Source: Streptomyces sp. NBC_00442
GTDB taxonomy: Bacteria; Actinomycetota; Actinomycetes; Streptomycetales; Streptomycetaceae
Length of the DNA stretch: 64,000 bases
Assembly: GCF_036014195.1 (NCBI RefSeq)
Contig: NZ_CP107918.1
Span: 434,001-498,000 of the forward strand
Reading direction: 5' to 3'
Part shown: piece by piece, positions 4,931-64,000 of the stretch
How positions within the stretch are numbered: the first letter of the stretch is position 1
How the letters are laid out: each line of letters opens with the position of its first letter
Program-made: the position numbers and the translations under genes
The notes under the pieces: model-generated
Databases searched by the model: none
Told to the model about the DNA's origin: nothing
Seen by the model: the letters and a program-made list of their open reading frames with translations, nothing else

Positions 4931-6076
4931 TCAGCCGGCCGCTTCCTGCGCGGAGTGCGGGTTGGCGGCCGCGCCCTCGGTGCTGAGGAGCACGACCACC
5001 GACGACGGGCCGAGCCCCAGCGCCGTACGCCACCGGCCGTTTTCCGGTGTGTCGAGCAGGGCCCGCAGTCCGGCGAGCCCCGCGGCGCCGCAGGGGCCCG
5101 AGGAGACGCCGAGTTCCGCGAGGGTCGCGGCGGCCCGAGCGGCCTCGGGGTCGGACACGGCGACAGCCGCGTCGAGTCCGTTGCGCAGGTGCGGCCACGC
5201 GATGCTGGACGGGGTACCGCAATTGAGCCCGGCCATGGCGGTGTCGCCGGTGGTGATGCTGACGGGCGCGTCCCGCGTGAGGCTCTCCAGGACGCAGGCG
5301 GCGGCCATCGGCTCCACCGAGAGCAGGGCCGGCGCCTGCCCGGACGGACGGCTTCGGTAGTGCGTCACGACCGCCTGGGCCAGGGACCCCACACCCACGG
5401 GTACGGCGACGAGGCCGGGGCCCGCGGCGACGCCGGCGGCCGTCAGCTGCTCGTCGATCTCGGCGCAGAGGGTGGAGTAGCCCTCGACGATCCATGCGGG
5501 GATCCGCTCGTAGCCCGGCCAGCCCGTGTCCTGGACCAGGACCGCGTCCGCCCGGCCCGCCCGCTCGGCCGCGAGCCGCACCGCCTCGTCGTAGGGCCCG
5601 GCGACCTGGGTGACCTTCGCCTGCTCCGCGGTGATGGCCGACACCGCACGGGGATGGACACCCCGGGGGACGAAGACATGGGCGCGCTGTCCGAGCAGGC
5701 GCGCCACGCGGGCCACCGCGCGCCCGTGGTTGCCGTCGGTGGCGGTGACCAGAGTGACCGGTTCCGGGTCGGCGCCGTCGGCCGCGGCCGGCCGCTCGGC
5801 GAGGATGCGACGGACCGCCCAGGACGCGCCGAGCGCCTTGAAGGCGGGCAGGCCCAGCCGGGACGACTCGTCCTTGACGAAGACGCGCCCGACCTCCAAC
5901 TCCCGTGCGAGTGCGGGTAGTTCGGTGAGCGGAGTGGGCGCGTAGTCGGGCAGCGCGGCATGGAAGTCGCGCACCTCGACGGGCGCGGGCTCGCAGCGCC
6001 AGGCGTTTCGGGAGCCGGGCCGCGCGGACCAGGTCGTGAGGGGCAGGGCGCGGGGAGTTGAAACGAGTTCGGGCAT
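4931..6076 (-). CDS. PLP-dependent diaminopropionate ammonia-lyase-like protein
   Basis: A fold-type II pyridoxal-phosphate enzyme of 381 residues, cytosolic. The PLP lysine is in LPAFKALGASWAV (about residue 83), with the substrate loop ATDGNHGRAVAR (about 118) and a glycine-rich phosphate loop VPVGVGSLAQAV. The ATDGNHGRAVA form is characteristic of 2,3-diaminopropionate ammonia-lyase (DpaL/YgeX), which releases pyruvate and ammonia; threonine dehydratases usually have a different loop. At 381 residues it is close to the usual size of about 400. ATG 6076 starts the conserved part but has only a weak upstream GGGCGG. It is divergent from the SRPBCC gene and separate from the uptake locus. Related serine/threonine dehydratase activity cannot be excluded. 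Confidence 0.78.
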   Translation of the reverse strand: MPELVSTPRALPLTTWSARPGSRNAWRCEPAPVEVRDFHAALPDYAPTPLTELPALARELEVGRVFVKDESSRLGLPAFKALGASWAVRRILAERPAAADGADPEPVTLVTATDGNHGRAVARVARLLGQRAHVFVPRGVHPRAVSAITAEQAKVTQVAGPYDEAVRLAAERAGRADAVLVQDTGWPGYERIPAWIVEGYSTLCAEIDEQLTAAGVAAGPGLVAVPVGVGSLAQAVVTHYRSRPSGQAPALLSVEPMAAACVLESLTRDAPVSITTGDTAMAGLNCGTPSSIAWPHLRNGLDAAVAVSDPEAARAAATLAELGVSSGPCGAAGLAGLRALLDTPENGRWRTALGLGPSSVVVLLSTEGAAANPHSAQEAAG

Positions 6077-6247
6077 CCGCCCAGGGTGCGGTGCGCGCCC
6101 GCGATCAGTCCAGCACACGCTCCTGCCGCCATAAGGTCTCACCGTGCGTGCCGGGCACCCGCGTTGACCACCCACCCACTCCAATGTTAGAACTTATAAC
6201 GAACGACAAGCCCTCTAAGTCCAGTCTTCCACGTCAGGGGATTCGTC

Positions 6248-6880
6248 ATGTTCGGCACTCGTCGCACCGGCCTCCGCGCCGCCCTGTTCGCCGTCCCGCT
6301 CGTTCTCGCCGTGCTCGGCTCCGCCGCGGCGCCCGCCGGCGCCGCCCCGCGTACCGTCACGTCCCTCACCTGCCGCGGGCAGGGCGTCGACCCCGACGCC
6401 CGCGTCCGCTACCGCACCGAAGCCGTCGTCCACGCCTCGTTGAACACCGTCTGGAAGGTGCAGACCGACGTGGCGCGGTGGCCCTCCTGGCAGGGCGCCG
6501 TCACCAGCGCGGAACGCCTCGACCACGGTCCCTTCCGCACGGGATCGGCGTTCCACTGGACGACCCCCGTGCCTCCCAACCCCGCGACCCCCGCCACCAG
6601 CCTGGACATCACCTCCACCGTCCAGCAGGTCCGGCACGGCTCCTGCATCCGCTGGACGGGGCCCGCGACCGGCGAGGGGCTGCACATCGACGGCGTGCAC
6701 GTATGGAACTTCACCAAGGTCAGGGGCGGCGTTCTCGTACGCACCGAGGAGACCCACACCGGCCCGCAGGTCGATGCCGACGTTCCCGCCGCGACCGAGA
6801 TCCTCCGCACCGGGCTCGACGCGTGGCTGCGGGACCTGAAGAACGCCGCCGAGGCCCGAACCGCCGATCACCGGAGCTGA
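6248..6880 (+). CDS. Secreted SRPBCC (START/polyketide-cyclase-like) family protein
   Basis: 210 residues. A signal peptide (residues 1-33: basic start, LFAVPLVLAVLGSAAAP core, AGA-AP cleavage region) precedes an SRPBCC-type helix-grip domain, with VVHASLNTVWKVQTDVARW and WPSWQGAVTSAE typical of the first helix and strand. These domains bind hydrophobic ligands. Secretion is uncommon for the family but recurs in Streptomyces. The ATG has AGGGG 8 nt upstream. The sequence before it (GTTAGAACTTATAAC, about 6185-6200) is AT-rich, includes a TATAAC box and a small dyad, and may be the promoter. No enzymatic residues can be assigned. Confidence 0.8.
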   Translation: MFGTRRTGLRAALFAVPLVLAVLGSAAAPAGAAPRTVTSLTCRGQGVDPDARVRYRTEAVVHASLNTVWKVQTDVARWPSWQGAVTSAERLDHGPFRTGSAFHWTTPVPPNPATPATSLDITSTVQQVRHGSCIRWTGPATGEGLHIDGVHVWNFTKVRGGVLVRTEETHTGPQVDADVPAATEILRTGLDAWLRDLKNAAEARTADHRS

Positions 6881-7022
6881 CGCCCGGGTCCGCGGACCAC
6901 CTGGTGATTCCTCCAGTGCGCACACCCCCGCCCCGCCGTTTTCCGTGCGCGGAACCAGTCGTTTCCGGCCCCCTCGCGGGCTTCACTGGCTTGGACGCAG
7001 TGGTAGAAGGGCGTGGAGAGAC

Positions 7023-7856
7023 ATGGATCTGAACACCGTGATGGACGTGCGGGACGCGCGGCTGCGGGAACCCTGGCAGTCGGGGGACGCGTGGCTGGGC
7101 GGGGGCACGTACCTGTTCTCCGAGCCGCAGCCCCATCTGCGGCGGCTCGTGGATCTGAGCCGGATGGGCTGGGATCCGCTGACGGTGGGCGCGGACGGAT
7201 CGCTGAAGATCGCGGCCACGTGCACCATCGCCCAGCTCTACCGGTTCGGGCGGGCGCTGCCCGTGGCGTCCGCGCACCTCTTCGAGCAGTGCTGCCGCGC
7301 CTTCCTGGCCTCGTTCAAGATCTGGAACATGGCCACCGTGGGCGGCAACCTGTGCAACGGGCTGCCGGCCGGACCCATCATCTCGCTGGCCGCCGCACTC
7401 GACGGCACCTGCCTGCTCCAGTCGCAGGCGGGCGCCGTACGCGACGTGAAGGTCGTCGACTTCATCCTCGGCGCCGGCATCAAGAATCTCGGCGAGGGCG
7501 AGCTGCTCCGCTCGGTCACCCTCCCGGCGCGTGCCCTGGCCTGCCACACGGCGTTCCGGCAGGTGTCGCTCTACGGGCTCGGCCGCTCGGGCGCCCTGGT
7601 CATCGGGACGCTCGACCCGGCGGACGGGTCGATGGCGGTGACGATCAGCGCGGCCACCGTGCGCCCGTTCCGCTTCTGGTTCCCGCTGCCTCCGGACCGG
7701 GGCGAACTGCAACGGGCGATCGAGACGCACGTCGGCGGCGACGACTGGTACGACGACATCCACGGACTGCCCGAGTGGCGGCGGCACATGGGGCTGCGCC
7801 TCGCGGAGGAAGTCCGCCAGGAACTGACGCGGCTGTGCGGAGGAGGTGCGCGATGA
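7023..7856 (+). CDS. FAD-binding subunit of a molybdenum hydroxylase (xanthine dehydrogenase family)
   Basis: 277 residues with the CO-dehydrogenase/xanthine-dehydrogenase FAD fold: WLGGGTYLF near residue 26 (first pyrophosphate loop) and ATVGGNLCNGLPAGP near 103 (second FAD loop). The FAD subunit passes electrons from the iron-sulfur clusters to NAD or another acceptor. ATG 7023 is backed by GGAGAG; the ORF is open further upstream but without conserved sequence. The stop overlaps the next start by 4 nt (ATGA), so it is co-translated with the iron-sulfur/molybdenum subunit, and the two would form an (alpha-beta)n enzyme. Confidence 0.9.
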   Translation: MDLNTVMDVRDARLREPWQSGDAWLGGGTYLFSEPQPHLRRLVDLSRMGWDPLTVGADGSLKIAATCTIAQLYRFGRALPVASAHLFEQCCRAFLASFKIWNMATVGGNLCNGLPAGPIISLAAALDGTCLLQSQAGAVRDVKVVDFILGAGIKNLGEGELLRSVTLPARALACHTAFRQVSLYGLGRSGALVIGTLDPADGSMAVTISAATVRPFRFWFPLPPDRGELQRAIETHVGGDDWYDDIHGLPEWRRHMGLRLAEEVRQELTRLCGGGAR

Positions 7857-52670: not shown

Positions 52671-54689
52671 ATGTCCATGCGCGAAGACACCACCGCCCAC
52701 GCCTGCCTCCGCCACGCCGCGCTCCGCGCCGACGGCATGTGGATGCTGCTCGCACCCGCGGCCGGGCCGACCGGGGCGGCGGAGCTCGTCCGGGTCAGTC
52801 CGCGCGCTCAGGCCGCCCTGCTCACCGACGCGCCACCGTGCTGGACCTTCTCCGACCTGCTCGCACCGACCAGCATGTCCATCTCCCGCCAGCTGCTCCT
52901 GGACGCCCTGCACGGCGAGGGCCGCACCTATCGGCAGCCGATCGAATTCGCCCACCCGGGCGGCGCGGTCGTCTGCATGACGTCGGCGCGCCGCATCGAC
53001 CGCCGCGAGGGCGACCCCGCCGTCCTGGTGGAGATCGAGGAGGAGGAAGAGGGCGAGTGGCTGCACTGGGAGGCACTGCGCTCCATGACGGTGTTGGCGG
53101 ACCACTCCCTGTGGGTCTACGACGAGGAGTCCGACGCGTTCAGCTGGCTCGACGGCGAGCGGCTCTACAACGGCATGGGCCCCGGCGACACGATGTCGCT
53201 GGACCAACTGCTCGGTCGGGTCTACGCCGACGACGTGGGCCGGGTGGAGGCGGCGTTCTGGGCGCTGCGCAGGGGCCACTCCCGGCAGGTGGACGTCGAC
53301 TTCCGCATGCCCGACGAGCACGGCCGGCTGAACTGGCTCCGCACCCTCGCCCGGCTCGTCCGCTTCGGCTTCGACGGGGGGCGGCGCGTCGTGGGCACGA
53401 CCACGAACACCACCGCGGCCGTGGAACGTCACCAGTCGCTCGTCAAGGCGCACGCCGACGCGCGCCGACGCGTCGACCTCGTCCAGCAACTGGCCGCCGC
53501 GTTCGTGGCCGCGGCCACGGAGGACGAGCTGACGGCGGCGATCCTGAACAAGGTGGCGCCCGCCTTCGGCGGCACCGGCACCCTGCTGGCGTTCGTGGAG
53601 GAGGAAAGGCTGCGCGTGACGTTCGGCACGGGGATCGACCCCGCGCTCGCACGCTCCCTGCACGGCCTGCCGCTGGACGCTCCCAAGCCCCTGACCGAGG
53701 CGATCCGCACGGGAACCCCGCTGTTCATCGCGACCCGCGACGACTACCGGCGGTCGTGGCCACAAGCCCACGGGCTGCTGGACGCCACCTCCGCCGAGTC
53801 GTTCATCATGATCCCCCTGCGGGGCCAGGGGGCCGCGCCGCTCGGCGGGTGGGTGGTGACGTACGACAGGCCGCACGACCTCTCGAACCAGGAACGCACC
53901 CTCGTCGGCGTCATGGCGGACGTCGCGGGACAGGCCTGGGAGCGCATCCGGCTGCAGTCGGCCCGTACGGAACTGGCCGGCACGGTGCAGCGCAATCTGC
54001 TGCCCGCCACGCTGCCGGCCGTCGTCGGCTACGAGATCGAAGCGCGCTACAGCCCCGCTCACCAGGGCCTGGACGTCGGCGGCGACTGGTACGACGTGAT
54101 CGCCCTGCCGGACGGCAGCACCGCGTGCATCATCGGTGACGTACAGGGCCACAATGTGCAGGCCGCCGCGATGATGGGGCAGGTGCGCACCGCGATGCAC
54201 GCCTACGCCTGGCAGGAGCCGGCCCCGGACCAGGTGCTGGCCCGCACCAACGACCTGATGCTCCAGATGCGGATGCCGGTCTTCGCGACCTGTCTGTACG
54301 CCCTGCTCACCCCCGACGGCCGGGTCAGCACCGCGCGGGCGGGGCACGTTCCGCTGGTGCACTGCGCGGAGGACGGCGCCGTGGTCCGCGAATATCCGGG
54401 CGGGCCGCCACTGGGTGTGCTCGCGGGCGGCCGCTTTCCCGTCCATTCGCTGCAGCTGGCCCCCGGCGACCTGCTGGCTCTCGTCACGGACGGCGTGGTG
54501 GAGGGCCCGCAGCTGCCGATCGACGGCGGACTCGCCGTGATCTGCGATGCCGCCGCCCGTCGGCGCGCGGAGCCCCTCACCGAGATCGCCGACGTCCTCA
54601 TGGCGCAGGGCGACTCGATGACGGGACACGTCGACGACCGCGCCCTGCTCGTGGTCCGCCGGAGGGAGCCGGAAAAGGTGGGGGCCTGA
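52671..54689 (+). CDS. PAS-GAF-SpoIIE (PP2C) phosphatase
   Basis: 672 residues. A PAS-like domain about 130-240 (SLWVYDEESDAFSWLDGERLYNG), GAF about 255-420 (LVQQLAAAFVAAATEDELTAAILNKVAPAFGG), then a PP2C/SpoIIE domain about 435-665: AHQGLDVGGDWYDVIALPDG (metal ligand Asp), IIGDVQGHNVQAAAMM, and LLALVTDGVVEG with DDRALLVV. Dephosphorylates STAS antagonists to release sigma factors. The start ATG 52671 is taken as the first in frame; ATG 52677 is an alternative. Same signalling theme as the MEDS and STAS genes 3 kb away. Confidence 0.9.
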   Translation: MSMREDTTAHACLRHAALRADGMWMLLAPAAGPTGAAELVRVSPRAQAALLTDAPPCWTFSDLLAPTSMSISRQLLLDALHGEGRTYRQPIEFAHPGGAVVCMTSARRIDRREGDPAVLVEIEEEEEGEWLHWEALRSMTVLADHSLWVYDEESDAFSWLDGERLYNGMGPGDTMSLDQLLGRVYADDVGRVEAAFWALRRGHSRQVDVDFRMPDEHGRLNWLRTLARLVRFGFDGGRRVVGTTTNTTAAVERHQSLVKAHADARRRVDLVQQLAAAFVAAATEDELTAAILNKVAPAFGGTGTLLAFVEEERLRVTFGTGIDPALARSLHGLPLDAPKPLTEAIRTGTPLFIATRDDYRRSWPQAHGLLDATSAESFIMIPLRGQGAAPLGGWVVTYDRPHDLSNQERTLVGVMADVAGQAWERIRLQSARTELAGTVQRNLLPATLPAVVGYEIEARYSPAHQGLDVGGDWYDVIALPDGSTACIIGDVQGHNVQAAAMMGQVRTAMHAYAWQEPAPDQVLARTNDLMLQMRMPVFATCLYALLTPDGRVSTARAGHVPLVHCAEDGAVVREYPGGPPLGVLAGGRFPVHSLQLAPGDLLALVTDGVVEGPQLPIDGGLAVICDAAARRRAEPLTEIADVLMAQGDSMTGHVDDRALLVVRRREPEKVGA

Positions 54690-54734
54690 GCAGGGCCATG
54701 CAGCCGCTTTGGGCATGGCACCCGCACAGCCCCT

Positions 54735-54752
54735 GTACCTACTAGTATGTAC
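54735..54752. promoter_or_regulatory. 18-bp near-perfect palindrome before the tautomerase gene
   Basis: GTACCTACTAGTATGTAC matches its own complement except at one pair. GTAC...TACTAGTA...GTAC is the style of HxlR-type or TetR-type operators that control quinone/electrophile genes. It lies 47 nt before ATG 54799; no matching regulator gene is adjacent. Confidence 0.6.
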
Positions 54753-54798
54753 ACTCGGATGTCACGTCGTCACGTTGCCGATCTCCCCTGGGGGCTCC

Positions 54799-55182
54799 AT
54801 GCCGCTCGTTCGCATCGATGTTCTGGGCTGTGACGCCCAGCGGTTGAAGGCGCTGGGGCGCGCCGTCCAGGAGGCGCTGGGCGAGACGATGGGGATCCCG
54901 GACGACGATCGTTTCCAGATCCTGACCGGACATGACGGAGAGCGCGGCGTTCTGCGTCACGGCACCTACCTCGACGTGCAGCGGGACGACGGCATCGTGT
55001 ACGTGGCGATCACCTTGCGGGGTGGTCGGCCGGCCGACCGGAAGCAGGCGCTGTACCGACGTATTGCCGAGCTGGCCCAGGAATACGCGGGGACGGAGCC
55101 CCGCAACGTGTTCGTCGTGCTGACCGAGAACACCGATGCCGACTGGTCGCTCGGCAACGGGGACGCCCAGTACCTGCACTAG
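54799..55182 (+). CDS. Tautomerase family protein (4-oxalocrotonate tautomerase-like)
   Basis: 127 residues. After Met removal the N-terminal catalytic proline (MPLVRIDVLGCDAQRLKALGRAVQEALGETMGIPDDDRF) is Pro 1 as in 4-OT/MSAD tautomerases. The AxxVQEAL helix and the VYVAITLRGGRPADRKQALYRRIAEL second half repeat the beta-alpha-beta fold. The length of about 127 is the double (cis-CaaD/MSAD-like) size. ATG 54799 follows GGGGGCTCC. A palindrome 47 nt upstream suggests regulation by a HxlR or TetR-like factor. Substrate unknown. Confidence 0.85.
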   Translation: MPLVRIDVLGCDAQRLKALGRAVQEALGETMGIPDDDRFQILTGHDGERGVLRHGTYLDVQRDDGIVYVAITLRGGRPADRKQALYRRIAELAQEYAGTEPRNVFVVLTENTDADWSLGNGDAQYLH

Positions 55183-55194
55183 GGCGGCGATGGG

Positions 55195-55587
55195 GTCGGT
55201 GCGCCGCCGTGCGAGCGAACTCGCGGATCGCGTGGTGGACCGCGAAGTAGGCCCGCAGTTCCTGCCGGACGCCCTCCGGTGTGCGCGACCTGATCGGCCC
55301 GGCAGGGCCGAGGTGGTTCATGAACTCGTCGAAGGCCGGCCCGATCTCCCAGCGTTCCCGGTAGAGCTCGACCAGCCCGGATGCCGGGACTGCTCGGGGT
55401 ACAGCAGCGTCGTGCCCAGGGAGGCAACCCTGCCGTCCTTCTTGAAGACGATGACGCGGTAGATCGTGTGCTGCGGCAGAGTCCCGCCTTCCCTGCCGCC
55501 CCGGAGCCGGACCCCCTTACCCGGTCGCGCCATCGAGTGGTACGAGCCGTCCGGTGTGCCCAAGGACACGCGACCGCCCCGCCCAGG
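55195..55587 (-). pseudogene. IS4-type transposase remnant (frameshifted C-terminal part)
   Basis: On the minus strand two frames add up to the end of an IS4-family DDE transposase. Frame 1 (about 55587-55395) reads IYRVIVFKKDGRVASLGTTLLYPEQS, the region before the last acidic residue. Frame 2 (about 55365-55195) reads LVELYRERWEIGPAFDEFMNHLG and then RSRTPEGVRQELRAYFAVHHAIREFARTAAH. YRERWEI is the Y-(2)-R-(3)-E-(6)-K signature, but the catalytic Glu is Gly and the Lys is Met. The N-terminal two thirds are gone, cut at the adjacent flavoprotein gene. No terminal inverted repeats are seen. Inactive. Confidence 0.72.
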
Positions 55588-58315
55588 TCAGGCGCGCCCC
55601 GCGTAGGCGCGGATGTCGGCGTCCGTGTCGGTGGTGGCGGTGGCAAGGGCGGTGCGCGCTTCGGGGTGGGCGCGGTGGGCCAGGAGGGACAGAACCGCCG
55701 CCTTGCGGACGTCCGCGTTGATGTCGGCGAGCGCTCCGGCAAGCGCGGGGACGGCCTCGTCGGCGGCGGCCGCCTTGAGGGCCGCCGCGGCCCCGGCCCT
55801 GACCTGCCAGGCGGAGTCGGCGAGCGCGAGGGAGGCGGCGCCGGCGTAGGCGGGCGGGCAGCCGGTCGCCGCGAGCGCGGCGAGCGCGGCGCCTCGGACG
55901 AGGGGGTCCTGGTCGCCGAGGAGCGGGTCGAGCGATGCCGGCTCCGGGGCGCGCAGGGCCGCGACGCCGCGGGCCACCGCGACCCTCACCTCCCGGGCCG
56001 GGTCGGCCGCGGCCCGGGTCAGTTCCGCGACCGCGTCCACCGCCACCAGGCCCCGCACGGCGTGGATGCGGACCTCGATGTCGGTGTCGGTGAGCCGGGC
56101 GGCGTACTGAGCCGCCTCGCCCAGCCTGAGCGCCCGCAGCACTTCGAGGGCGGCGGTGCGCACGGCGGGGTCCGGCACATCGAGCGCCCCGCGCAACGCG
56201 GCCCCCAACTCGGGTTCCGCCGGCAGCACTTCGACCAGTTCGCGCAGGACGGCCGCCGCGGCGGACCGTACGGCGGGCGCGCCGTCCCGCAGCCGTGCGG
56301 CCAGGGCGATCCCGGCGCCGGCCGGTACGGTCTCGCCGAGCACCGTGACCGCGGCCGCGCGGACCGCGGGGTCGGGGTCGGCGAGGTAGGGGCCCAGCGT
56401 CGCCAGGTCGGGGGACTCCTCGGCCAGGGCGAGCAGCCGCAGCAGGGCCGGGCTCGGTGCGGATGCCGGGAGCGGGGCGTGCGGGGCGTGCGGGACCGTG
56501 GGTTCGGCGGGCACCGTCCGGGCGGCCGGGACGCTCGCGCGCGGGCCGGCCGTGGCGACGGGGACCAGCGCGACCTCCCCGAGCGGCCGCTCCGGTCCGG
56601 CGGCCGGGGTGAACTCCGGGACCGGCACGACGTACGGCTCGACCGGACGCGCGGTGAACTCCATCGTCCCGGAAGGGGACTTGCGCAGGTCGAGGTGGTG
56701 CAGCCAGCTCGCGTCGTCCTGCTCGGGATGGTCGAGACGCTGGTGGTAGAGGCCCCAGCGCGATTCGGTCCGGGCGAGCGAGGAGCGGGCCGCCATCTCG
56801 GCGCAGTCCCGGATGAACGTCACCTCGGCGCAGCGCATCAGCTCGTGCGGGGTGCGCGCCCCCATACCGGCGATCTCCCCGCCCATCCGCTCGAACGCCT
56901 CCACGGCGAGCGACAGCTTGGCACCGGTCTTCGGCGGCGCCACGTAGTCGTTGACGAACCGCCGCAGCTTGTACTCCACCTGCGGCTGCGGCGGGCCGTC
57001 GGGGTTGCGCAGCGGCCGGTAGACGAGCGCGTGCGCGGCGGCCACTTGATCTTCCGGCAACTCGCCGTCGTAGCACGGGTATTGGGCGGCATCCTCGCCC
57101 GCGAGGTCACCGAAGACGAACGCGCCGATCATGTAGTTGTGCGGGACGCAGGCGAGGTCACCGGCCGCGTACAGACGGGGCACGGTCGTGCGGGCGTGGG
57201 CATCGACGCGGACGCCCGACGCCGAGTGCCCCCCCGCACAGGCCGATCTCCGAGATGTGCATCTCGATGTCATGGGTGCGGTAGTCGTGCCCGCGGCCCT
57301 GGTGGAAGGTGCCGCGAGTGGGCCGTTCCGTGGTGTGCAGGATCGACTCGACGGCGCCGATGGTCTCCTCGGGCAGATGGCTCAGCTTGAGGTACACCGG
57401 GGCGCGGTCGGAGGCGAGTTCGGCGGAGAACTCGGCCATCATCTGGCCCGACCAGTAGTCCGACTCGACGAACCGCTCGCCGTGCCGGTTGACCTGGTAG
57501 CCGCCGAACGGATTGGCCACGTAGGCGCACGCGGGTCCGTTGTAGTCCTTGATCAGCGGGTTGATCTGGAAGCATTCGATCCCGGTGAGGGCGGCGCCCG
57601 CGTGGTAGGCCATGGCGTAGCCGTCGCCCGCGTTGGTCGGGTTCTCGTACGTCCCGTAGAGGTAGCCCGAGGCGGGAAGGCCGAGCCGGCCACAGGGGCC
57701 GGTGGCGAGGATGACGGCGCCCGCCCGCACGGTGACGAACTCCCCGGTGCGCGTGTTGAATCCGGCCGCGCCGACGGCCCGGCCCCCGGCCGTGAGCACC
57801 CGCACCGGCATGACCCGGTTCTCGATGCGGATCCGCTCGCGCATCTCCCGTCGCCGCAGCTGCCGGTAGAGGACCTTCTTGACGTCCTTGCCCTCCGGCA
57901 TGGGCAGCACGTAGGAGCCCGACCGGTGCACCTGGCGGACCGCGTACTCGCCGTGCTCGTCCTTCTCGAACTTGACCCCGTACGACTCCAGTCGCCTGAC
58001 CATGTCGAAGCCGCGGGTCGCGGTCTGGCGCACGGTGGACTGGTCGACGACGCCGTCATTGGCGCGGGTGATCTCGGCGACGTAGTCGTCGGGTTCGGCG
58101 CGGCCCGGGATGATCGCGTTGTTGACCCCGTCCATGCCCATGGCGAGCGCGCCGGAGTGCCGCACGTGGGCCTTCTCCAGGAGCAGGACGTTGGCGCCGC
58201 GGCCGGCCGCGGTGAGCGCGGCCATGGTGCCGGCGGTGCCGCCACCGATGACCAGCACGTCGCAGGCGAGTTCGGTCGCGTCGGCGAGGGCGGGAACGGT
58301 CATGGGGGTGTCCAC
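55588..58315 (-). CDS. AprA-like FAD flavoprotein fused to HEAT repeats, interrupted by a one-base frameshift
   Basis: Restoring one base gives about 908 residues. The N-terminal two thirds follow AprA/FrdA flavoproteins: VLVIGGGTAGTMAALTAAGRG, HSGALAMGMDGVNNAIIPG (close to adenylyl-sulfate reductase alpha), AVGAAGFNTRTGEFV, then, after the break, VPRLYAAGDLACVPHNYMIG. The last 270 or so residues are HEAT-like repeats (LADPDPAVRAAAVTVLGET, ALDVPDPAVRTAALEVLRAL). The frame changes at a G7 run (57229-57235); six G restore it, giving GLCGG-HSASGVRVD. This is a sequencing error or a real disruption. GTG 58315 has AAAGG upstream; ATG 58303 is possible. Last gene of the operon, partnered by the ferredoxin at 61284. 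Confidence 0.85.
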
Positions 58316-58343
58316 GGAAGGCCTTTCGGAGGGATCGGCGGAA

Positions 58344-59102
58344 TCAGAGGGAGGCGAGGACGCGGCGGCGCAGGGCCGTGGTCCCGGGGGCCCCGGCCGC
58401 GTCCCGCTGCCGGGGGTGCGGGACCGGGAGTACGAGGCCCGCGGCGAGCAGGGCGACCCGGTCACCGAGGTGGAGGGCCTCGTCCACGTCGTGCGTGACG
58501 AAGACGACGGTGGCGCCGGACTCGCCCAGGATGTCCACGAGCAGGTCCTGCATCCCGGACCGGGTGTGCGCGTCGAGCGCGCCGAACGGCTCGTCCATCA
58601 GGACCGCGCGCGGCCGGCCCGCCAACGCCCGTGCCAGCTGAATGCGTTGACGCTGACCGCCGGACAGCTGGTGCGGGAGCTTGGTGGCGTGTCCGGACAG
58701 TTCGACGCGGTCGAGCCATTCGGCGGCGGCGGTGCGGCGCTCGTCCCTCGGGACGCGGCGGATCGCCAGCGGCAGCTCGATGTTGGCGCGCACGGTCCGC
58801 CAGGGCAGCAGCGCGTCGTGCTGAAAGACCAGGGCCCGGTCGGCGTCGGGACGGGTGACCGGCCGGCCGTCCTGGGTGATCCGGCCGCCGAGGGCGGGCA
58901 GCAGCCCGGCCAGGGTGCGCAACAGGGTGGACTTCCCGCAGCCGGAGGGCCCGACCACGGTCAGCACCTCCCCCGGTGTCACGCGCAGATCGAGCGCGCC
59001 GAGTACGGGCGGCCCGTCGGGGTGCCCCAACCGGACGTCTTCCAGGACGAGTTCGGCGCCCGTCGGGGTGGCCGTGCGGGGCGGCGTCGTGGTGGTGCTC
59101 AT
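58344..59102 (-). CDS. ABC transporter ATP-binding protein, sulfonate/nitrate/taurine family
   Basis: 252 residues. Walker A VGPSGCGKST (about 50), FQHDALLPWRTV (Q-loop), LSGGQRQR signature, VLMDEPFGALD Walker B and VTHDVDEA switch. Sub-family as in the first locus, with which it shares the LLPWRxV segment. ATG 59102 overlaps the permease stop (ATGA). Twenty-eight nt separate it from the flavoprotein. It has no CTD extension. Energises uptake of an oxidised or reduced sulfur- or nitrogen-containing anion; the substrate is inferred only by family. Confidence 0.93.
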   Translation of the reverse strand: MSTTTTPPRTATPTGAELVLEDVRLGHPDGPPVLGALDLRVTPGEVLTVVGPSGCGKSTLLRTLAGLLPALGGRITQDGRPVTRPDADRALVFQHDALLPWRTVRANIELPLAIRRVPRDERRTAAAEWLDRVELSGHATKLPHQLSGGQRQRIQLARALAGRPRAVLMDEPFGALDAHTRSGMQDLLVDILGESGATVVFVTHDVDEALHLGDRVALLAAGLVLPVPHPRQRDAAGAPGTTALRRRVLASL

Positions 59103-59926
59103 GCGACGGGCTCCTTCACTGGTGGTGCGGCGACGGTGCGGCGGGCGGCCCGGCCGGTGCCGGCCGGGCGGGGCAGCCAGGCGGTGGCCCTGCGGCCGGC
59201 GAGCTCCACGGCCGTCGAGGTCAGCCAGCCGAGCGCGCCGATGGTGACCATGCCGACGAACACCCCCGGGTAGTCGACGACGGTGTACGCCTGCCAGGTG
59301 CGGTAGCCCACCCCGTACTCCCCCGAGATCATCTCGGCGGAGATCACGCAGTTCCAGGAGACGCCGACGCCCACCGAAATGCCGCCGAAGATGCCCGGCA
59401 GCGCCCCGGGCAGCACCACCGAGAACAGCACGCGGAGCCGGCCGCCGCCCATGGTGAGCACGGCTTCCTCCCACACCGGGCTCAGCGCGCGCACCGCGTG
59501 CCGTGTCGAGACGACGACGGGGAAGAAGGCGGCGGCGAAGGTGATGAACACGATGCCCTGCTCGTTGGTGGGCAGCAGCAGGATCGCGACCGGCACCAGG
59601 GCGATGGCGGGCACCGGCCTGACCACCTCGATCAGCGGGCCGAGCAGGTCCGCGGCCCAGCGCGAGCGCGCCACGGCGGTGCCGGTGGCCACGCCGAGGA
59701 TCGCGGCGAGCACGAAGCCGATCGCGATCCGGCGCAGGCTGTACCCGAGGTCCTGCCAGTACTCGGCCGTCGCGGCCCGTTCGGTGAAGGCGGAGGCCAC
59801 CTCGCCGACGGTGGGGAACTGCTCGAAGCGCAGCCACAGGTCGACGTCGTAGGAGGTGAGAAGCTGCCACAGCGCGAGGGCGGCGGCGAGCGATGCGGCG
59901 CGCAGCAGCCAGCGTCCCGCGCTCAC
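59099..59926 (-). CDS. ABC transporter permease, sulfonate/nitrate/taurine family
   Basis: 275 residues, about six hydrophobic segments starting LLRAASLAAALALWQLLTSY. The EAA-like loop is near AVLTMGGGRLRVLFSVVLPGALPGIFGG, with ISVGVGVSWNCVISAEMI following. Similar domain architecture to the first locus permease but clearly different sequence. GTG 59926 overlaps the binding-protein stop (GTGA), 3' end overlaps the ATPase start, giving a tightly coupled importer. Confidence 0.93.
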   Translation of the reverse strand: MSAGRWLLRAASLAAALALWQLLTSYDVDLWLRFEQFPTVGEVASAFTERAATAEYWQDLGYSLRRIAIGFVLAAILGVATGTAVARSRWAADLLGPLIEVVRPVPAIALVPVAILLLPTNEQGIVFITFAAAFFPVVVSTRHAVRALSPVWEEAVLTMGGGRLRVLFSVVLPGALPGIFGGISVGVGVSWNCVISAEMISGEYGVGYRTWQAYTVVDYPGVFVGMVTIGALGWLTSTAVELAGRRATAWLPRPAGTGRAARRTVAAPPVKEPVA

Positions 59927-61269
59927 GAGGCCAGCTCCCGTGCGCTCGCGTAGTCGACGGTCCGCGCCCCGGGGTGCTGGGCGACGTACGCCTCGGCGCC
60001 TGCGGGGGTGACGAAGGCGCGCAGGTCGGCGCCGTCCGCCACCCAGACCGCACGGTCGGCGAACCACAGGGTGCCGGTCACCGCGTCGGGCACGTACGCG
60101 GCCCGGACGTCGGCGCCCTTGACGGCCTTGAGGAGTTCCTTGGGGCTGTCGAAGGAGCGGGTCGTGTCCTGGCCCTTGAGCCACAGTTCGGACGTGGCGG
60201 CGGCCGCCCGCGGATAGGCGGGGGCCCGCACGGCGCGCTGGAGCGGGGCCGCGTCGACGAAGGCGTCGACGTCCACGTCACCGACCAGTTTCTCGGCCTT
60301 GAGGACCGGCACGTCCCGCTTGAGGGCGTCGATCAGTTCGGGGCGCAGGGCCGGGTCGAAGGTCGCGATGCCGTTGGCTCCGTTGTACAGGTAGACCACC
60401 TCGGCGGGCAGCCCCGTCTCCTTGGCCACCGACTCGGCGGCCGCCACGGGCTTGGTGCGCAGATAGTCGGTGGCGCGGCGCTGGGCCGCGAGGAAGGCGT
60501 CGAGGACCGCGGCGTGGTCCTTGGCGAACTTCGCGCGGACGGTGACGCCGTGGAAGGTGGGGAGGTTCAACTGGGCGCCGTCGTACAGGGCCTTGCCCTT
60601 CCCCTCGAAGGCCAGCTGCCCCGGCCAGGCGACGAACTGGGAGAGCGCGTCGGCACTGCCCGCCGTCAGCGCGGAAGCACCCACGCTCGGCTGCTGGTTG
60701 AGCTTGCGGATCCCCTTGTCGGGGTCGATGCCCGCCTGCTGCAGCGCGCGGACGAGGGTGCCGTCGGCAGCCGACCCGATGCTCGTGGACACCTTCTTGC
60801 CGCGCAGGTCGGCCAGGGACTTCAGCGGTGAACCGGGCGCGACCAGAACGGTGTTGAGGCCGCCGCGCAGGTTGTAGCCGGTCACGGACACGAGCTTCGT
60901 CGGCTGCTTGAGCTCCTTGCCCCGGGCCGCGTTGATGAGCAGCGGGAAGTCGCCCATCGACCCGATGTCGATCTTTCCCGCGGTCATCTGGGCGGTGATG
61001 GGGGCGCCGGTGGCGTAGTCCTGCCACTTCACGTGGTAGGTGATGCCGTCCTTGTGTCCGCGGGCGGCGAGTTCGTCCTCGAAGTAGCCGAGGGAACGCA
61101 GCAGGGTGCCCGCGGTGACGGTGTTGATGGTCTTGGACTGGTAGCCGACGGTGACCGTGACCGACTTCGCGCCGTCCTTGCTGTCGGCCCCGGCCGCGCC
61201 CGCGCAGCCGCCGGCCAGCGGCAGGACCAGAGCGAGGGCGAGGAGCGGTGCGACTCGCTTGCTGAGCAT
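59923..61269 (-). CDS. ABC substrate-binding lipoprotein with C-terminal NosL-like domain
   Basis: 448 residues. Lipoprotein signal MLSKRVAPLLALALVLPLAGGC (lipobox AGGC, Cys 22) then an SsuA/NrtA-like periplasmic domain: VGYQSKTINTVTAG, IGSMGDFPLLINAARGKEL, VLVAPGSPLKSLADLRGKKVSTS. The last about 90 residues, FDSPKELLKAVKGADVRAAYVPDAVTGTLWFADRAVWVADG and EAYVAQHPGARTVDYASA, look like a NosL-type (copper chaperone) fold, which is absent from ordinary binding proteins of this family (about 330 residues). The Cys and Met of NosL metal sites are not visible. ATG 61269 has AAAGG about 10 nt upstream. It is 14 nt after the ferredoxin. Confidence 0.83.
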   Translation of the reverse strand: MLSKRVAPLLALALVLPLAGGCAGAAGADSKDGAKSVTVTVGYQSKTINTVTAGTLLRSLGYFEDELAARGHKDGITYHVKWQDYATGAPITAQMTAGKIDIGSMGDFPLLINAARGKELKQPTKLVSVTGYNLRGGLNTVLVAPGSPLKSLADLRGKKVSTSIGSAADGTLVRALQQAGIDPDKGIRKLNQQPSVGASALTAGSADALSQFVAWPGQLAFEGKGKALYDGAQLNLPTFHGVTVRAKFAKDHAAVLDAFLAAQRRATDYLRTKPVAAAESVAKETGLPAEVVYLYNGANGIATFDPALRPELIDALKRDVPVLKAEKLVGDVDVDAFVDAAPLQRAVRAPAYPRAAAATSELWLKGQDTTRSFDSPKELLKAVKGADVRAAYVPDAVTGTLWFADRAVWVADGADLRAFVTPAGAEAYVAQHPGARTVDYASARELAS

Positions 61270-61283
61270 GCTGGTTGGGCCTT

Positions 61284-61511
61284 TCAACGGAGCAGATAGG
61301 GCATGTTGACGGTGACCGCGCCGGTGGGGCAGCGGGCCGCGCAGGGGCCGCAGTACCAGCACTCGTCCACGTGCATGTACGCCTTGCCGTTGTCCTCCCG
61401 GATCGCGAGGGAGTCGAGCGGACACATGTCGACGCAGAGGGTGCAGCCGTCGATGCACTTGGACTCGTCGATGGTCACGGGCACGTCGGCGCGGTGCGGG
61501 ACGAGAGGCAT
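61284..61511 (-). CDS. AprB-like ferredoxin with two 4Fe-4S motifs
   Basis: 75 residues. Cys motifs are KCIDGCTLCVDMCP (Cx3Cx2Cx3CP, one residue longer than usual in the first gap) and ECWYCGPCAARCP (Cx2Cx2Cx3CP), then TGAVTVN. The compact size and CWYC element resemble the beta subunit of adenylyl-sulfate reductase (AprB). It would carry electrons to or from the AprA-like flavoprotein encoded six genes down the same operon. ATG 61511 has GGAGAC 6 nt upstream. First gene after the GntR regulator (121-nt gap). Confidence 0.88.
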   Translation of the reverse strand: MPLVPHRADVPVTIDESKCIDGCTLCVDMCPLDSLAIREDNGKAYMHVDECWYCGPCAARCPTGAVTVNMPYLLR

Positions 61512-61632
61512 GGCTGTCTCCAGGCGAAGGGGGCGGGGGCGGGATGAAAGGAGCCGGGGGGAAAGGGGCCGGGGTCGATGAGGGGCCGGGTCGTATCGGT
61601 GCGGGGATCCGGGAAGGGCCGGGCGGCCGGGG

Positions 61633-62403
61633 TCACAGAGAGCGGTGGAGTACGCCGCTCATGCTGATGCGGTCGCCGCGGAAGCGGATGAACTCCAGGT
61701 CCACGGGCCGCCCGTCGGGCAGGTGGGTGAGCCGCTCCAGCATCAAGACGGCTGCGCCGCGCGGTACTTGGAGCACCGCGGCGGAGTGCGCGTCGGCGTT
61801 GACCGCCTCCAGCGTGACCTCGGCATGGCCCAGCGGGCCGCCGGTCAGCGATTCCAGGAGCCGGAAGACATCGGTGTTCTCCAGGTCGCAGCCGAGCAGT
61901 TCGCCGCCCACGTCCATCGGCAGGTAGGACAGGTCGAGGGAGAGCGGAAGCCCGTTCAGGCGGCGCAGTCGCTCGATGCACAGCACGTCGCCCTGTTCGG
62001 GCAGCCCGAGCCGGTGCGCCACCGGGGTCGGGGCGCGGACCGGTCCGACGGTGCGCACCTCGTTGGTCACTCTGCCGTGCTCGTGCAGGGTCTCGGCGAG
62101 CCCCTGGAGCCGGTCGAGGCCGTGCGGGTATTTCTTCTCGCAGACCACTACGGTGCCGACGCCGGGTTGCCGGGCCACCAGTTGTTCGTCGCGCAGCATT
62201 TTCAGGGCCTGGCGAACGGTGTTGCGGCTCGCCCGGTAGTCGGCGGCGATGGCGTGTTCCAGGGGGAGCACGCCACCGGGAAAACCGCCCGTGAGGATCT
62301 GGTGGCGCAGCAGGTCGGCGAGCTGCCGTGCCTGGTCGGCGCGCAGCCGCCGACGGCGCGCGGCGGCGACCGGAAGCGAGGCGGGGGCGGGTTCTGCTGG
62401 CAT
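61633..62403 (-). CDS. GntR-family (HutC/UTRA type) transcriptional regulator
   Basis: 256 residues. N-terminal winged HTH (about 20-90): QLADLLRHQILTGGFPGGVLPLEHAIAADYRASRNTVRQALKMLRDEQLVARQPGVGTVV, then a UTRA effector domain with CIERLRRLNGLPLSLDLSYLP and MLERLTHLPDGRPVDLEFIRF. HutC-type GntR proteins respond to small metabolites. Leaderless start suggested by TACGTT 7 nt before ATG 62403. It heads the minus-strand cluster and most likely controls ferredoxin-importer-flavoprotein expression. Confidence 0.92.
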   Translation of the reverse strand: MPAEPAPASLPVAAARRRRLRADQARQLADLLRHQILTGGFPGGVLPLEHAIAADYRASRNTVRQALKMLRDEQLVARQPGVGTVVVCEKKYPHGLDRLQGLAETLHEHGRVTNEVRTVGPVRAPTPVAHRLGLPEQGDVLCIERLRRLNGLPLSLDLSYLPMDVGGELLGCDLENTDVFRLLESLTGGPLGHAEVTLEAVNADAHSAAVLQVPRGAAVLMLERLTHLPDGRPVDLEFIRFRGDRISMSGVLHRSL

Positions 62404-62721
62404 GGCAGGGAACGTACCGGCCGGGCCCCTCCCATGGTGTTGCCACAGTATTGCGCCACCTCGCGCCCGACCCTCAGGGCGCTGACCTGCGGTTATGCGG
62501 AGACCCGTACAAGATCCGCCACCCCGGTGCCCACAGGGTGGACAGGGCATGCCCCGGCCTGCGCTCGAACGCGGCGAGGGCCCGACCGCCAGATGGCGGT
62601 CGGGCCCTCGTCCCTCGATCACGGCGCCCCCGCGGCCGCCCGCCCGTGGGCCGGGCCGCCGCGGGGGCGCCGAAGGTGTCACGCAGGCGGACTCGGTCCG
62701 TTTCGTGACGGCGCGATGCGC
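62404..62721. other. 318-nt intergenic region between helicase and GntR genes
   Basis: No gene is supported. It holds the helicase terminator hairpin (62575-62610) and, near 62436-62460, the AT-richer TGTTGCCACAGTATTGC stretch that may belong to the GntR promoter. Confidence 0.45.
62575..62610 (-). terminator. 16-bp perfect hairpin downstream of the helicase gene
   Basis: CGAGGGCCCGACCGCC and GGCGGTCGGGCCCTCG pair perfectly around AGAT. There is no U-tract, as is common in Streptomyces. It lies 112 nt after the helicase stop. Confidence 0.7.
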
Positions 62722-64000
62722 CTAGGCCGCCGCGTCGAAGGAGGTCTGGCGCGCGCTCACGCGCCGGGCCGCCGAGGCGGGGCTCCGGCGGCCGCGCGAG
62801 GAGGCGCCGCGTGCGGACGTACCGCGCTGCCGTCGCTCGGCCACGGGCGCGGTGATCGTCACGGGGACGCCGGACGGGGCCTGCGCTCCGGTGATCCGGC
62901 TGAGGGCCTCGTCGCCGGAGCGGACCTGGGTGGTCTGGGGCACGATCCCGGCGGCGGCCATGAGGCGGCTCATGTCGCGGCGCTGCTGGGGGGTGACCAG
63001 GGTGACGACGCTGCCGGACTCGCCGGCGCGGGCGGTGCGGCCGCCGCGGTGCAGGTAGTCCTTGTGGTCGGTCGGCGGGTCGACGTTGACCACGAGGTCG
63101 AGGTTGTCGACGTGGATGCCGCGGGCGGCCACGTTGGTGGCGACGAGCACGGTGACGTGTCCGGTCTTGAACTGGGCCAGGGTGCGGGTGCGCTGGGGCT
63201 GCGACTTGCCGCCGTGCAGGGCGGCGGCGCGGACGCCGCTGTTCAGGAGGTCCTGGGTGAGCCGGTCGACTGCGTGCTTGGTGTCGAGGAACATGATCAC
63301 CCGGCCGTCGCGTGCCGCGATGTGCGTCGTCGTGCGCTGCTTGTCGGCGCCGTGGACGTGCAGGACGTGATGTTCCATCGTGGTGACCGCGCCCGCGGAC
63401 GGGTCGACGGAGTGGACGACGGGGTCGACGAGGTAACGGCGGACCAGGAGGTCGACGTTGCGGTCGAGGGTGGCCGAGAACAGCATGCGCTGACCCTCGG
63501 GGCGCACCTGGTCCAGGAGCGCGGTGACCTGGGGCATGAAGCCCATGTCGGCCATCTGGTCGGCCTCGTCGAGGACGGTGATCGCGACCTGGTTGAGCCG
63601 GCAGTCACCGCGGTCGATGAGGTCCTTGAGCCGTCCAGGCGTCGCGACGACGACCTCGGAGCCGCCGCGCAGCATGTTGGCCTGCCTGCCGATCGACATG
63701 CCGCCGACCACCGTGGCGAGGCGCAGCTTCACCGCGCGGGCATAGGGGGTGAGGGCGTCGGTGACCTGCTGGGCCAGCTCTCGCGTCGGCACGAGGACCA
63801 GGGCGAGGGGCTGGCGGGGCTCGGCGCGCTGTCCGGCGGTGCGGGCCAACAGGGCCAGGCCGAAGGCGAGGGTCTTGCCGGAGCCGGTGCGGCCGCGTCC
63901 CAGAGCGTCGCGGCCCGCGAGGGTGTTGGGCAGCGTCGCGCCCTGGATCGGGAACGGAACGCTCACGCCCTGCGCGGTCAGTGCGGCCAGCAGGGGGGCG
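62722..64000 (-). CDS. DEAD-box RNA helicase (N-terminus outside the window)
   Basis: The visible 426 residues run off the right edge. Motifs present: Q-type PFPIQ, Walker A GRTGSGKT, PTRELAQQ (Ia), TPGRLKDLI (Ib), VLDEADQM (DEAD), SATLD (SAT as motif III), MFLDTKHAVDRL, TNVAARGIHVDNLDLVVNVDPP and HRGGRTARAG (VI). C-terminal tail is Arg/Ser rich (RGASSRGRRSPASAARRVS). DEAD rather than DEAH chemistry: ATP-dependent RNA unwinding, cold-shock or ribosome-related in other bacteria. The sequence continues leftwards into ALTAQGVSVPF beyond ATG at 63966, so the true start is outside. Confidence 0.95.
   Translation of the reverse strand, partial: APLLAALTAQGVSVPFPIQGATLPNTLAGRDALGRGRTGSGKTLAFGLALLARTAGQRAEPRQPLALVLVPTRELAQQVTDALTPYARAVKLRLATVVGGMSIGRQANMLRGGSEVVVATPGRLKDLIDRGDCRLNQVAITVLDEADQMADMGFMPQVTALLDQVRPEGQRMLFSATLDRNVDLLVRRYLVDPVVHSVDPSAGAVTTMEHHVLHVHGADKQRTTTHIAARDGRVIMFLDTKHAVDRLTQDLLNSGVRAAALHGGKSQPQRTRTLAQFKTGHVTVLVATNVAARGIHVDNLDLVVNVDPPTDHKDYLHRGGRTARAGESGSVVTLVTPQQRRDMSRLMAAAGIVPQTTQVRSGDEALSRITGAQAPSGVPVTITAPVAERRQRGTSARGASSRGRRSPASAARRVSARQTSFDAAA

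Follow-up and report, generated by a model that had tools for sequence, protein, structure and literature searches.

Genes of the operon

This study concerns an operon at positions 55588-62403 of a 64,000-nt window, the whole stretch of DNA that was analysed, from Streptomyces sp. NBC_00442 (C1:434001-498000 of a 7.73-Mb single-contig genome). Its genes encode a GntR-family regulator, a ferredoxin, the substrate-binding protein (SBP), permease and ATPase of an ATP-binding cassette (ABC) importer, and a flavoprotein, all on the minus strand (Table 1). The operon is a genuine, conserved and apparently uncharacterised importer-coupled flavin/iron-sulfur module. Domain scans agree with a first-pass annotation of this DNA, which had recognised GntR, an eight-cysteine ferredoxin, an SBP-permease-ATPase set and a flavoprotein with HEAT repeats. 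The annotation had also described a single strand with 4-nt overlaps. The strand is right, but such overlaps occur at two junctions only (SBP/permease, 59926-59923; permease/ATPase, 59102-59099), and at the other three the genes are separated by 121, 14 and 40 nt.

Table 1. Features in and around the operon, in window coordinates
Feature	Position	Strand	Basis or remark
GntR-family regulator with UTRA, 256 aa	61633..62403	-	PF00392 5e-15, PF07702 1.6e-33
2x[4Fe-4S] ferredoxin, 75 aa	61284..61511	-	PF12838; AprB-like second motif
ABC SBP, SsuA/TauA (NMT1) family, C-terminal extension	59923..61269	-	TIGR01728 8e-37
ABC permease, GTG start	59099..59926	-	PF00528 2e-18
ABC ATPase	58344..59102	-	PF00005 2e-30
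Flavoprotein, N-terminal FAD_binding_2 part	57158..58303	-	PF00890 1.7e-30; family frame to ~57230
G7 run, frame break in flavoprotein gene	57229..57235	-	relatives in frame
Flavoprotein, C-terminal part, second frame	55588..57231	-	PF02910 5e-14, PF13646 2e-28
Candidate operator, 25-bp imperfect inverted repeat GGTGGCGCAATACTGTGGCAACACC	62436..62460	-	upstream of gntR
SpoIIE-type phosphatase-like open reading frame, flanking	52671-54689		named from translation, without database match
Small tautomerase-like open reading frame, flanking	54709-55182	+	named from translation, without database match
DEAD-box helicase-like open reading frame, flanking	from 62722		named from translation, without database match

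The flavoprotein gene is divided by a frame break that the first-pass annotation had missed. The N-terminal part ends in ...EIGLCGG, the continuation typical of the family, HSASGV, sits in another frame, and the G7 run lies between them. The C-terminal part consists of the rest of the flavin adenine dinucleotide (FAD) part, Succ_DH_flav_C and HEAT repeats (HEAT_2). Both parts share one frame in 20/20 fetched relatives, and two codons (six bases) replace the G7 of the window in the 15 of these 20 that were caught by a sequence pattern. In the protein database, the C-terminal half is a separate 531-aa protein, P0121, from a 17,844-base contig; that record thus has the break as well, although it is not necessarily an independent one. 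The enzyme gene in this genome is off by a single base, either truly broken or misread, and the break at G7 is a sequencing error or a recent indel. We interpreted the enzyme through its relatives and kept the two halves of the flavoprotein separate.

The candidate operator GGTGGCGCAATACTGTGGCAACACC lies 32 bp before the start codon of gntR and has a single copy in the genome at <=3 mismatches. A looser symmetric pattern precedes gntR in 9 of 20 relatives, yet it also occurs at three other sites in the window, so symmetry alone is not specific. The word TGGCGCAA is present in 17 of 20 upstream regions, that of the window included. Because the 25-bp box is single in the genome and TGGCGCAA is conserved upstream, the pattern suggests that the operon is dedicated and ligand-controlled rather than part of a wide regulon.

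Conservation of the module in three phyla

Among 100 relative genomes, that of the window included, 26 have the N-terminal part of the flavoprotein at E<=1e-60; 20 of the 25 others were fetched and five were left out. The series GntR-ferredoxin-SBP-permease-ATPase-flavoprotein-HEAT is complete in 18 of these 20, the remaining two being L045, without a GntR match, and L029, without the importer. The translation of L029 at 1141-1600, between the ferredoxin and flavoprotein genes, reads like the 3´ remnant of an ATPase gene. In a wider set of 296 genomes across the phylum, 11 match at E<=1e-80 and 8 exceed the cut-off of the family model NF006131.

A plasmid search with a query from a relative outside Actinomycetota returned 51 records at ~56-63% identity to that query. 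The copies come from Actinomycetota (Nonomuraea, Tsukamurella), Cyanobacteriota (Nostoc, Pseudanabaena, Leptolyngbya) and Pseudomonadota (rhizobia, Methylobacterium, Methylocystis, Paraburkholderia, Cupriavidus, Acinetobacter, Acidithiobacillus and others). Scanning of a genome collection confirmed at least 581 loci; at least 6260 proteins reached E<=1e-30 among 8000 scored candidates, the weaker of which need not all belong to the flavoprotein family. One family protein, P0014, is from Streptomyces venezuelae. The best 80 of the at least 581 loci all fall in Pseudomonadota, with Pseudomonas and Burkholderiales predominating; the sample is not random, being made up of close kin of a single Cupriavidus protein, and contig ends truncate some of the loci. 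The series GntR-flavoprotein-ferredoxin-SBP-permease-ATPase-HEAT is complete in 64 of them, four are without a GntR match only, two without a HEAT match only, nine are importerless and one retains the SBP only. Counted by gene, the ferredoxin is found in 80 loci, GntR in 76, HEAT in 75, the SBP in 71, and the permease and the ATPase in 70 each; DUF971 is found in 60, in 55 of them within 6.5 kb. The module is thus present in conserved order in Actinomycetota, Pseudomonadota and Cyanobacteriota, and its occurrence in an aerobic actinomycete is not the oddity that it had at first appeared to be.

The regulator varies in kind. A GntR match is present in 19/20 fetched relatives as well as in the 76 proteobacterial loci mentioned above, Crp/Fnr regulators stand beside several alphaproteobacterial copies, and LysR regulators stand beside the cyanobacterial copies L063 and L157. 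The HEAT repeats vary in their attachment. They are fused to the flavoprotein in actinobacterial copies and encoded by a separate gene in the 80 proteobacterial loci, which points to a physical partnership of the two; among 13 annotated plasmid regions, the gene is separate in 12 and, judged by length, fused in one (Tsukamurella). One pair of HEAT parts aligned at 34% over 272 columns (E 5e-5), such repeats being easy to align. The same 13 regions hold a full SBP-permease-ATPase set in 10 cases, DUF971/GBBH-N in 5, Mrp/NBP35 in 3 and a YeiH-type exporter in 2.

Relationships of the flavoprotein, ferredoxin and importer

The own family of the flavoprotein is covered by two NCBIfam models, NF010374 (PRK13800) with and NF006131 (PRK08275) without fused HEAT repeats, both bearing the generic name fumarate reductase/succinate dehydrogenase flavoprotein subunit. 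The two halves score 830.7 and 736.3 bits against NF010374, far above any model outside this pair, and 572.8 and 260.7 bits against NF006131; as pieces of a broken gene, each remains below the curated cut-offs (1196 and 587 bits, respectively). The first-pass annotation had proposed an undescribed pathway. Searches of the open-access literature, outside which most subscription papers lie, found no description of the flavoprotein family or of the module; PRK13800 came up once, in PMC8401276, and the accessible portions of PMC7661421 and PMC10708946 hold nothing on the family; the proteins themselves are not new to annotation, as NCBIfam already has equivalog models for them.

Kinship beyond the family was assessed by single-sequence searches of the PDB, since the alignment used for a profile search contained two rows resembling 3´-phosphoadenylyl sulfate (PAPS) reductase (PAPSR) and hence leans towards that enzyme. 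For the intact relative L062, the alpha subunit of PAPS reductase (8a8o_A, 1e-60) ranks before AprA (5e-46) and SdhA (4e-24), and the N-terminal part from the window gives the same ranking. This part scores far below the cut-offs of the SdhA/FrdA equivalogs (99.5 bits for TIGR01812, cut-off 567.3; 73 bits for TIGR01816, cut-off 727.35), and the AprA model TIGR02061 gives 89.5 and 34.6 bits on the two halves (cut-off 641.75). By these scores only, AprA and PAPSR appear nearest to the family, in keeping with the AprA-like label of the first-pass annotation. In trees, the family forms one group with support of 99/99 (21 rows) and 92/97 (9 rows), AprA and PAPSR-like proteins form a second (100/100), and three proteins read as Sdh/Frd-type form a third; AsfA and TcuA sit on very long branches. 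The proposal of the first-pass annotation was to fall if the flavoprotein clustered with ordinary FrdA/NadB and gene order was not conserved. The flavoprotein instead has its own group, with scores that favour PAPS reductase/AprA over SdhA/FrdA/NadB, and the gene order is conserved.

Residues were compared in 121 rows, comprising all family loci (L027-L054, L058-L143, L157-L163). The rows were picked by two motifs with none lost; L040 and L052 represent one gene, leaving 120 distinct rows, and the PAPSR-like L056, L057 and L164 were left out. The equivalents of AprA Asn74 and His398 are retained in 121/121 rows. The equivalents of Arg265 and Trp234, which we take to be APS/sulfite-contact residues (APS, adenylyl sulfate), the former presumably contacting the sulfonate, are replaced by Leu and Tyr, respectively, in 121/121 rows. 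Sulfite/APS-type chemistry can therefore not be assumed, and the pair, AprAB-like in the first-pass annotation, is not an AprAB pair in the strict sense. Glu141 is replaced by Lys/Arg, Leu278 by Thr/Ala (one Gly), Phe448 by Tyr and, in a smaller alignment, Arg317 by Met. The roles of the compared residues, except Gln145, are those that we presume them to have. The column of Gln145, a residue named in PMC10322725, is unsure, since one alignment has His/Arg there and the other Val. The FAD part has three cysteines (C249, C264 and C361 in L062 numbering) that are invariant in 121/121 rows.

The eight cysteines of the ferredoxin are arranged in two motifs, CxxxCxxCxxxCP and CxxCxxCxxxCP, and the protein is without the C-terminal tail of AprB. 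The Trp of its CWxC segment corresponds to Trp42 of the beta subunit of PAPS reductase from the archaeon Methanothermococcus thermolithotrophicus (position checked), a residue proposed for electron transfer in that enzyme in the part of PMC10322725 that was accessible. This Trp is kept in 113/113 loci; the only ferredoxin compared from another family, an AsfB candidate, has Gln there.

The SBP scores 127 bits against TIGR01728 (cut-off 163.5) and matches SsuA in the PDB (2x26, 1.5e-18). With a family profile, TauA (2e-26) and SsuA (8e-26) come before the nitrate-type (NrtA-type) protein (2e-20), placing the SBP nearest to taurine- and sulfonate-binding proteins by similarity. The permease is below cut-off with all NtrB/SsuC/TauC-type models, as is the ATPase with all TauB/SsuB/NtrCD-type models. 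A C-terminal extension is common to 16 aligned SBPs. Of the two extensions singled out in the first-pass annotation, HEAT is borne out (PF13646), but NosL likeness is weak: the full SBPs of three relatives match NosL at E = 0.11, 0.0012 and 0.00026, all below the curated cut-off, and a Pfam scan of the excised extension gave no match in the window or in L027. The extension may thus be called weakly NosL-like. In the cyanobacterial locus L063, the product of a LysR-type gene (5559-7574, minus strand; 671 aa) clusters with the SBP of the module, as if this regulator held the same sensor domain.

Proposed function and alternative explanations

Known systems offer partial parallels. The module resembles the PAPS reductase of M. 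thermolithotrophicus (MtPAPSR, PDB 8a8o) in pairing an FAD alpha subunit with a two-cluster ferredoxin beta subunit and in keeping the equivalents of Asn74/His398 (AprA numbering) and beta Trp42. It differs in the replacement of Arg265 and Trp234, in its short, tail-less ferredoxin (75 versus 104 aa), in the HEAT partner and in the adjacent ABC importer. With AprAB, it shares the fold family and the arrangement of a FAD_binding_2 and Succ_DH_flav_C alpha subunit beside a two-cluster ferredoxin, so that it looks to be wired like AprAB; the 13 annotated regions hold no sulfate-activation genes. Similar parts, namely a reductase/flavoprotein, a ferredoxin, an SBP/ABC transporter and an own regulator, make up asfRABC, which is needed for aromatic sulfonates in Pseudomonas putida S-313 (accessible text of PMC4267179 and PMC2864759 for the parts, of PMC4267179 for the requirement). 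AsfA and AsfB are named in Cupriavidus metallidurans CH34 as Rmet_4334/5 (PMC2864759, in part). We took the CH34 AsfA candidate to be L150, placed by gene count from a NuoF-like open reading frame taken as Rmet_4300. It scores 56 bits against NF006131 (cut-off 587), which speaks against orthology to the flavoprotein as far as the CH34 naming holds, and the CWxC Trp is replaced by Gln in its ferredoxin. The regulator there is LysR, versus GntR/UTRA here, and the asf accounts mention no HEAT in the text accessible to us. Identity with asfRABC, assumed at first, was accordingly dropped, the CH34 candidate being a distant subfamily, and the likeness was kept. SsuABC and TauABC belong to the same transporter family as the SBP, permease and ATPase, but all scores are below curated cut-offs and the SBP of the module has its extension; unlike SsuEADCB and TauABCD, the operon carries no gene for SsuD, SsuE or TauD in the stretch from gntR to the flavoprotein gene. 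Asf-like in layout and AprAB-like in wiring, the window operon belongs to neither system.

We tentatively favour, with a probability of roughly 0.4, a self-contained operon for the uptake and reduction of an organosulfonate-like anion. The SsuA/TauA-like SBP with the ABC permease and ATPase would take up an organic sulfur anion, a sulfonate being the likeliest. The ferredoxin would dock in the cytoplasm on the FAD flavoprotein as AprB does on AprA and feed electrons to it via the conserved Trp, with the HEAT repeats perhaps holding or escorting the flavoprotein. The imported compound would then be reduced by two electrons at the FAD, and sulfite may be released into ordinary assimilation. GntR/UTRA would sense the compound and switch the operon through one dedicated operator. 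The importer-linked redox conversion of a sulfur-type anion envisaged in the first-pass annotation thus still appears the best reading, with TauA and SsuA as the nearest relatives of the SBP; organosulfonate as the substrate class and reduction as the direction are what we infer to be most likely. The coupling is favoured by the presence of the ferredoxin gene beside that of the flavoprotein in 80/80 proteobacterial loci, 20/20 actinobacterial relatives and 13/13 annotated plasmid regions. A hint of sulfur comes from a TauE/SafE exporter in 3 of these 13 regions, and a fourth has a TSUP gene at a greater distance. A hint of reduction comes from A. caldus plasmid pTcM1 (L061 10102-14035, plus strand), where the module is followed by FdxA and by a GltD/Nfn-like oxidoreductase of 1153 aa that might pass electrons from NAD(P)H to ferredoxin.

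Several observations weigh against this proposal. The enzyme gene of the window is itself frame-broken, and the two AprA contact residues are replaced throughout the family. The trees leave the sister of the family (AprA/PAPSR or not) unsettled, even with TcuA as outgroup. SsuA-type binding proteins include nitrate binders, and the best PDB matches of the ferredoxin are general polyferredoxin domains (2e-17), with the beta subunit of PAPS reductase (8a8o_C) tenth at 6e-8 and AprB at 3e-6. Importer genes are missing in 9/80 proteobacterial loci, a tenth having the SBP only, and in 1/20 actinobacterial relatives. TauE queries match 0/80 proteobacterial loci (1e-6, 50% cover); a sulfite exporter as a constant companion was accordingly dropped.

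The frameshift at G7, together with the separate storage of the C-terminal half as P0121, would also be expected of a decaying pseudogene that does nothing in this strain. We take this to be a serious alternative, though not the favoured one, given that no second break was seen, that the FAD parts are still 95% and 87% identical to those of the intact relative L027, that P0121 may derive from data on the same strain and that homopolymer runs are usual sites of indel errors. The loss of the presumed sulfonate-contact Arg of AprA would also fit an enzyme that oxidises or reduces a compound other than a sulfur one, e.g. a nitrogen compound, brought in by the SsuA-like importer. The FAD_binding_2 superfamily includes FrdA, SdhA and NadB, a nitrate-type binding protein is among the matches of the SBP, and PII and an ammonium transporter are found near one copy of the module and thi genes near another. 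The nearest relatives by score act on sulfonucleotides, however, the SBP is closest to TauA/SsuA, and the SdhA/FrdA equivalogs are far below cut-off, which makes a non-sulfur substrate rather unlikely in our view.

Slightly less probable still is that the flavoprotein and ferredoxin merely pass electrons, as in an Asf-like chain, to an oxygenase encoded elsewhere (such as an SsuD-type monooxygenase) that would cleave the imported sulfonate. The similar parts list of asfRABC (PMC4267179, seen in part) makes this conceivable, and any of the 22 luciferase-fold matches at E<=1e-20 in the genome of the window is a possible partner. The distance of the CH34 AsfA candidate and its ferredoxin speaks against it, and a DmoA-type query, the one monooxygenase query used on the 80 loci (TauD was not searched there), matched 1/80, so the module is not accompanied by an oxygenase of this kind. 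A mere carrier would presumably not need the AprA Asn and His that are kept in 121/121 rows. An assimilatory APS or PAPS reductase is very improbable and was rejected on residues and neighbouring genes. PAPS reductase is the best structural homologue by sequence, but the Arg265 and Trp234 equivalents are replaced in every row, PAPSR-like pairs elsewhere adjoin cysC/cysD or genes read as sulfite reductases, and cysC, cysD and sat are found in 0/13 annotated regions of the module. The genome also has two PAPS_reduct-family matches of its own at 1276-1278 kb; sulfate assimilation is therefore likely present, and the flavoprotein-ferredoxin pair need not serve it. The flavoprotein is probably neither an APS nor a PAPS reductase.

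If the uptake-and-reduction proposal is true, a widespread cluster now labelled fumarate reductase serves soil bacteria and cyanobacteria in acquiring sulfur, AprA-like chemistry extends from sulfonucleotides to organic substrates, and many annotations are to be corrected. Given the tight synteny, a single laboratory strain would suffice for a direct test. A more specific and doubtful version is oxygen-independent reductive desulfonation, in which a ferredoxin-driven flavoenzyme of the AprA/PAPS-reductase branch would free sulfite from imported organosulfonates in three phyla. The invariant C249, C264 and C361 (L062) would in that case belong to a new active site, and the module would provide aerobes with a third route to sulfonate sulfur besides monooxygenases dependent on reduced flavin mononucleotide (FMNH2) and 2-oxoglutarate dioxygenases.

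Other features of the region are minor. No RNA element reached its gathering score within 55000-64000 of the window, and no tRNA was found in the 64 kb. A defence system was dismissed, PADLOC having given just a generic HEAT-ARM match (1.6e-9). The three flanking open reading frames (phosphatase-, tautomerase- and helicase-like) look unrelated to the operon. Among the PAPSR-like AprAB pairs, those of L056 and L057, from the same phylum, adjoin the genes read as sulfite reductases, L057 also has a TusA-like gene by the pair, and the pair on plasmid pILYOP02 of Ilyobacter polytropus (L164 1770-7101) lies with cysC, cysD and a GTP-binding gene. In the Nostoc plasmid copy of the module (L058 9695-16014), genes for HAD hydrolases, a methyltransferase, GNAT and VOC proteins stand between those for the flavoprotein and the ferredoxin, and the HEAT gene is followed by one for an amidase.

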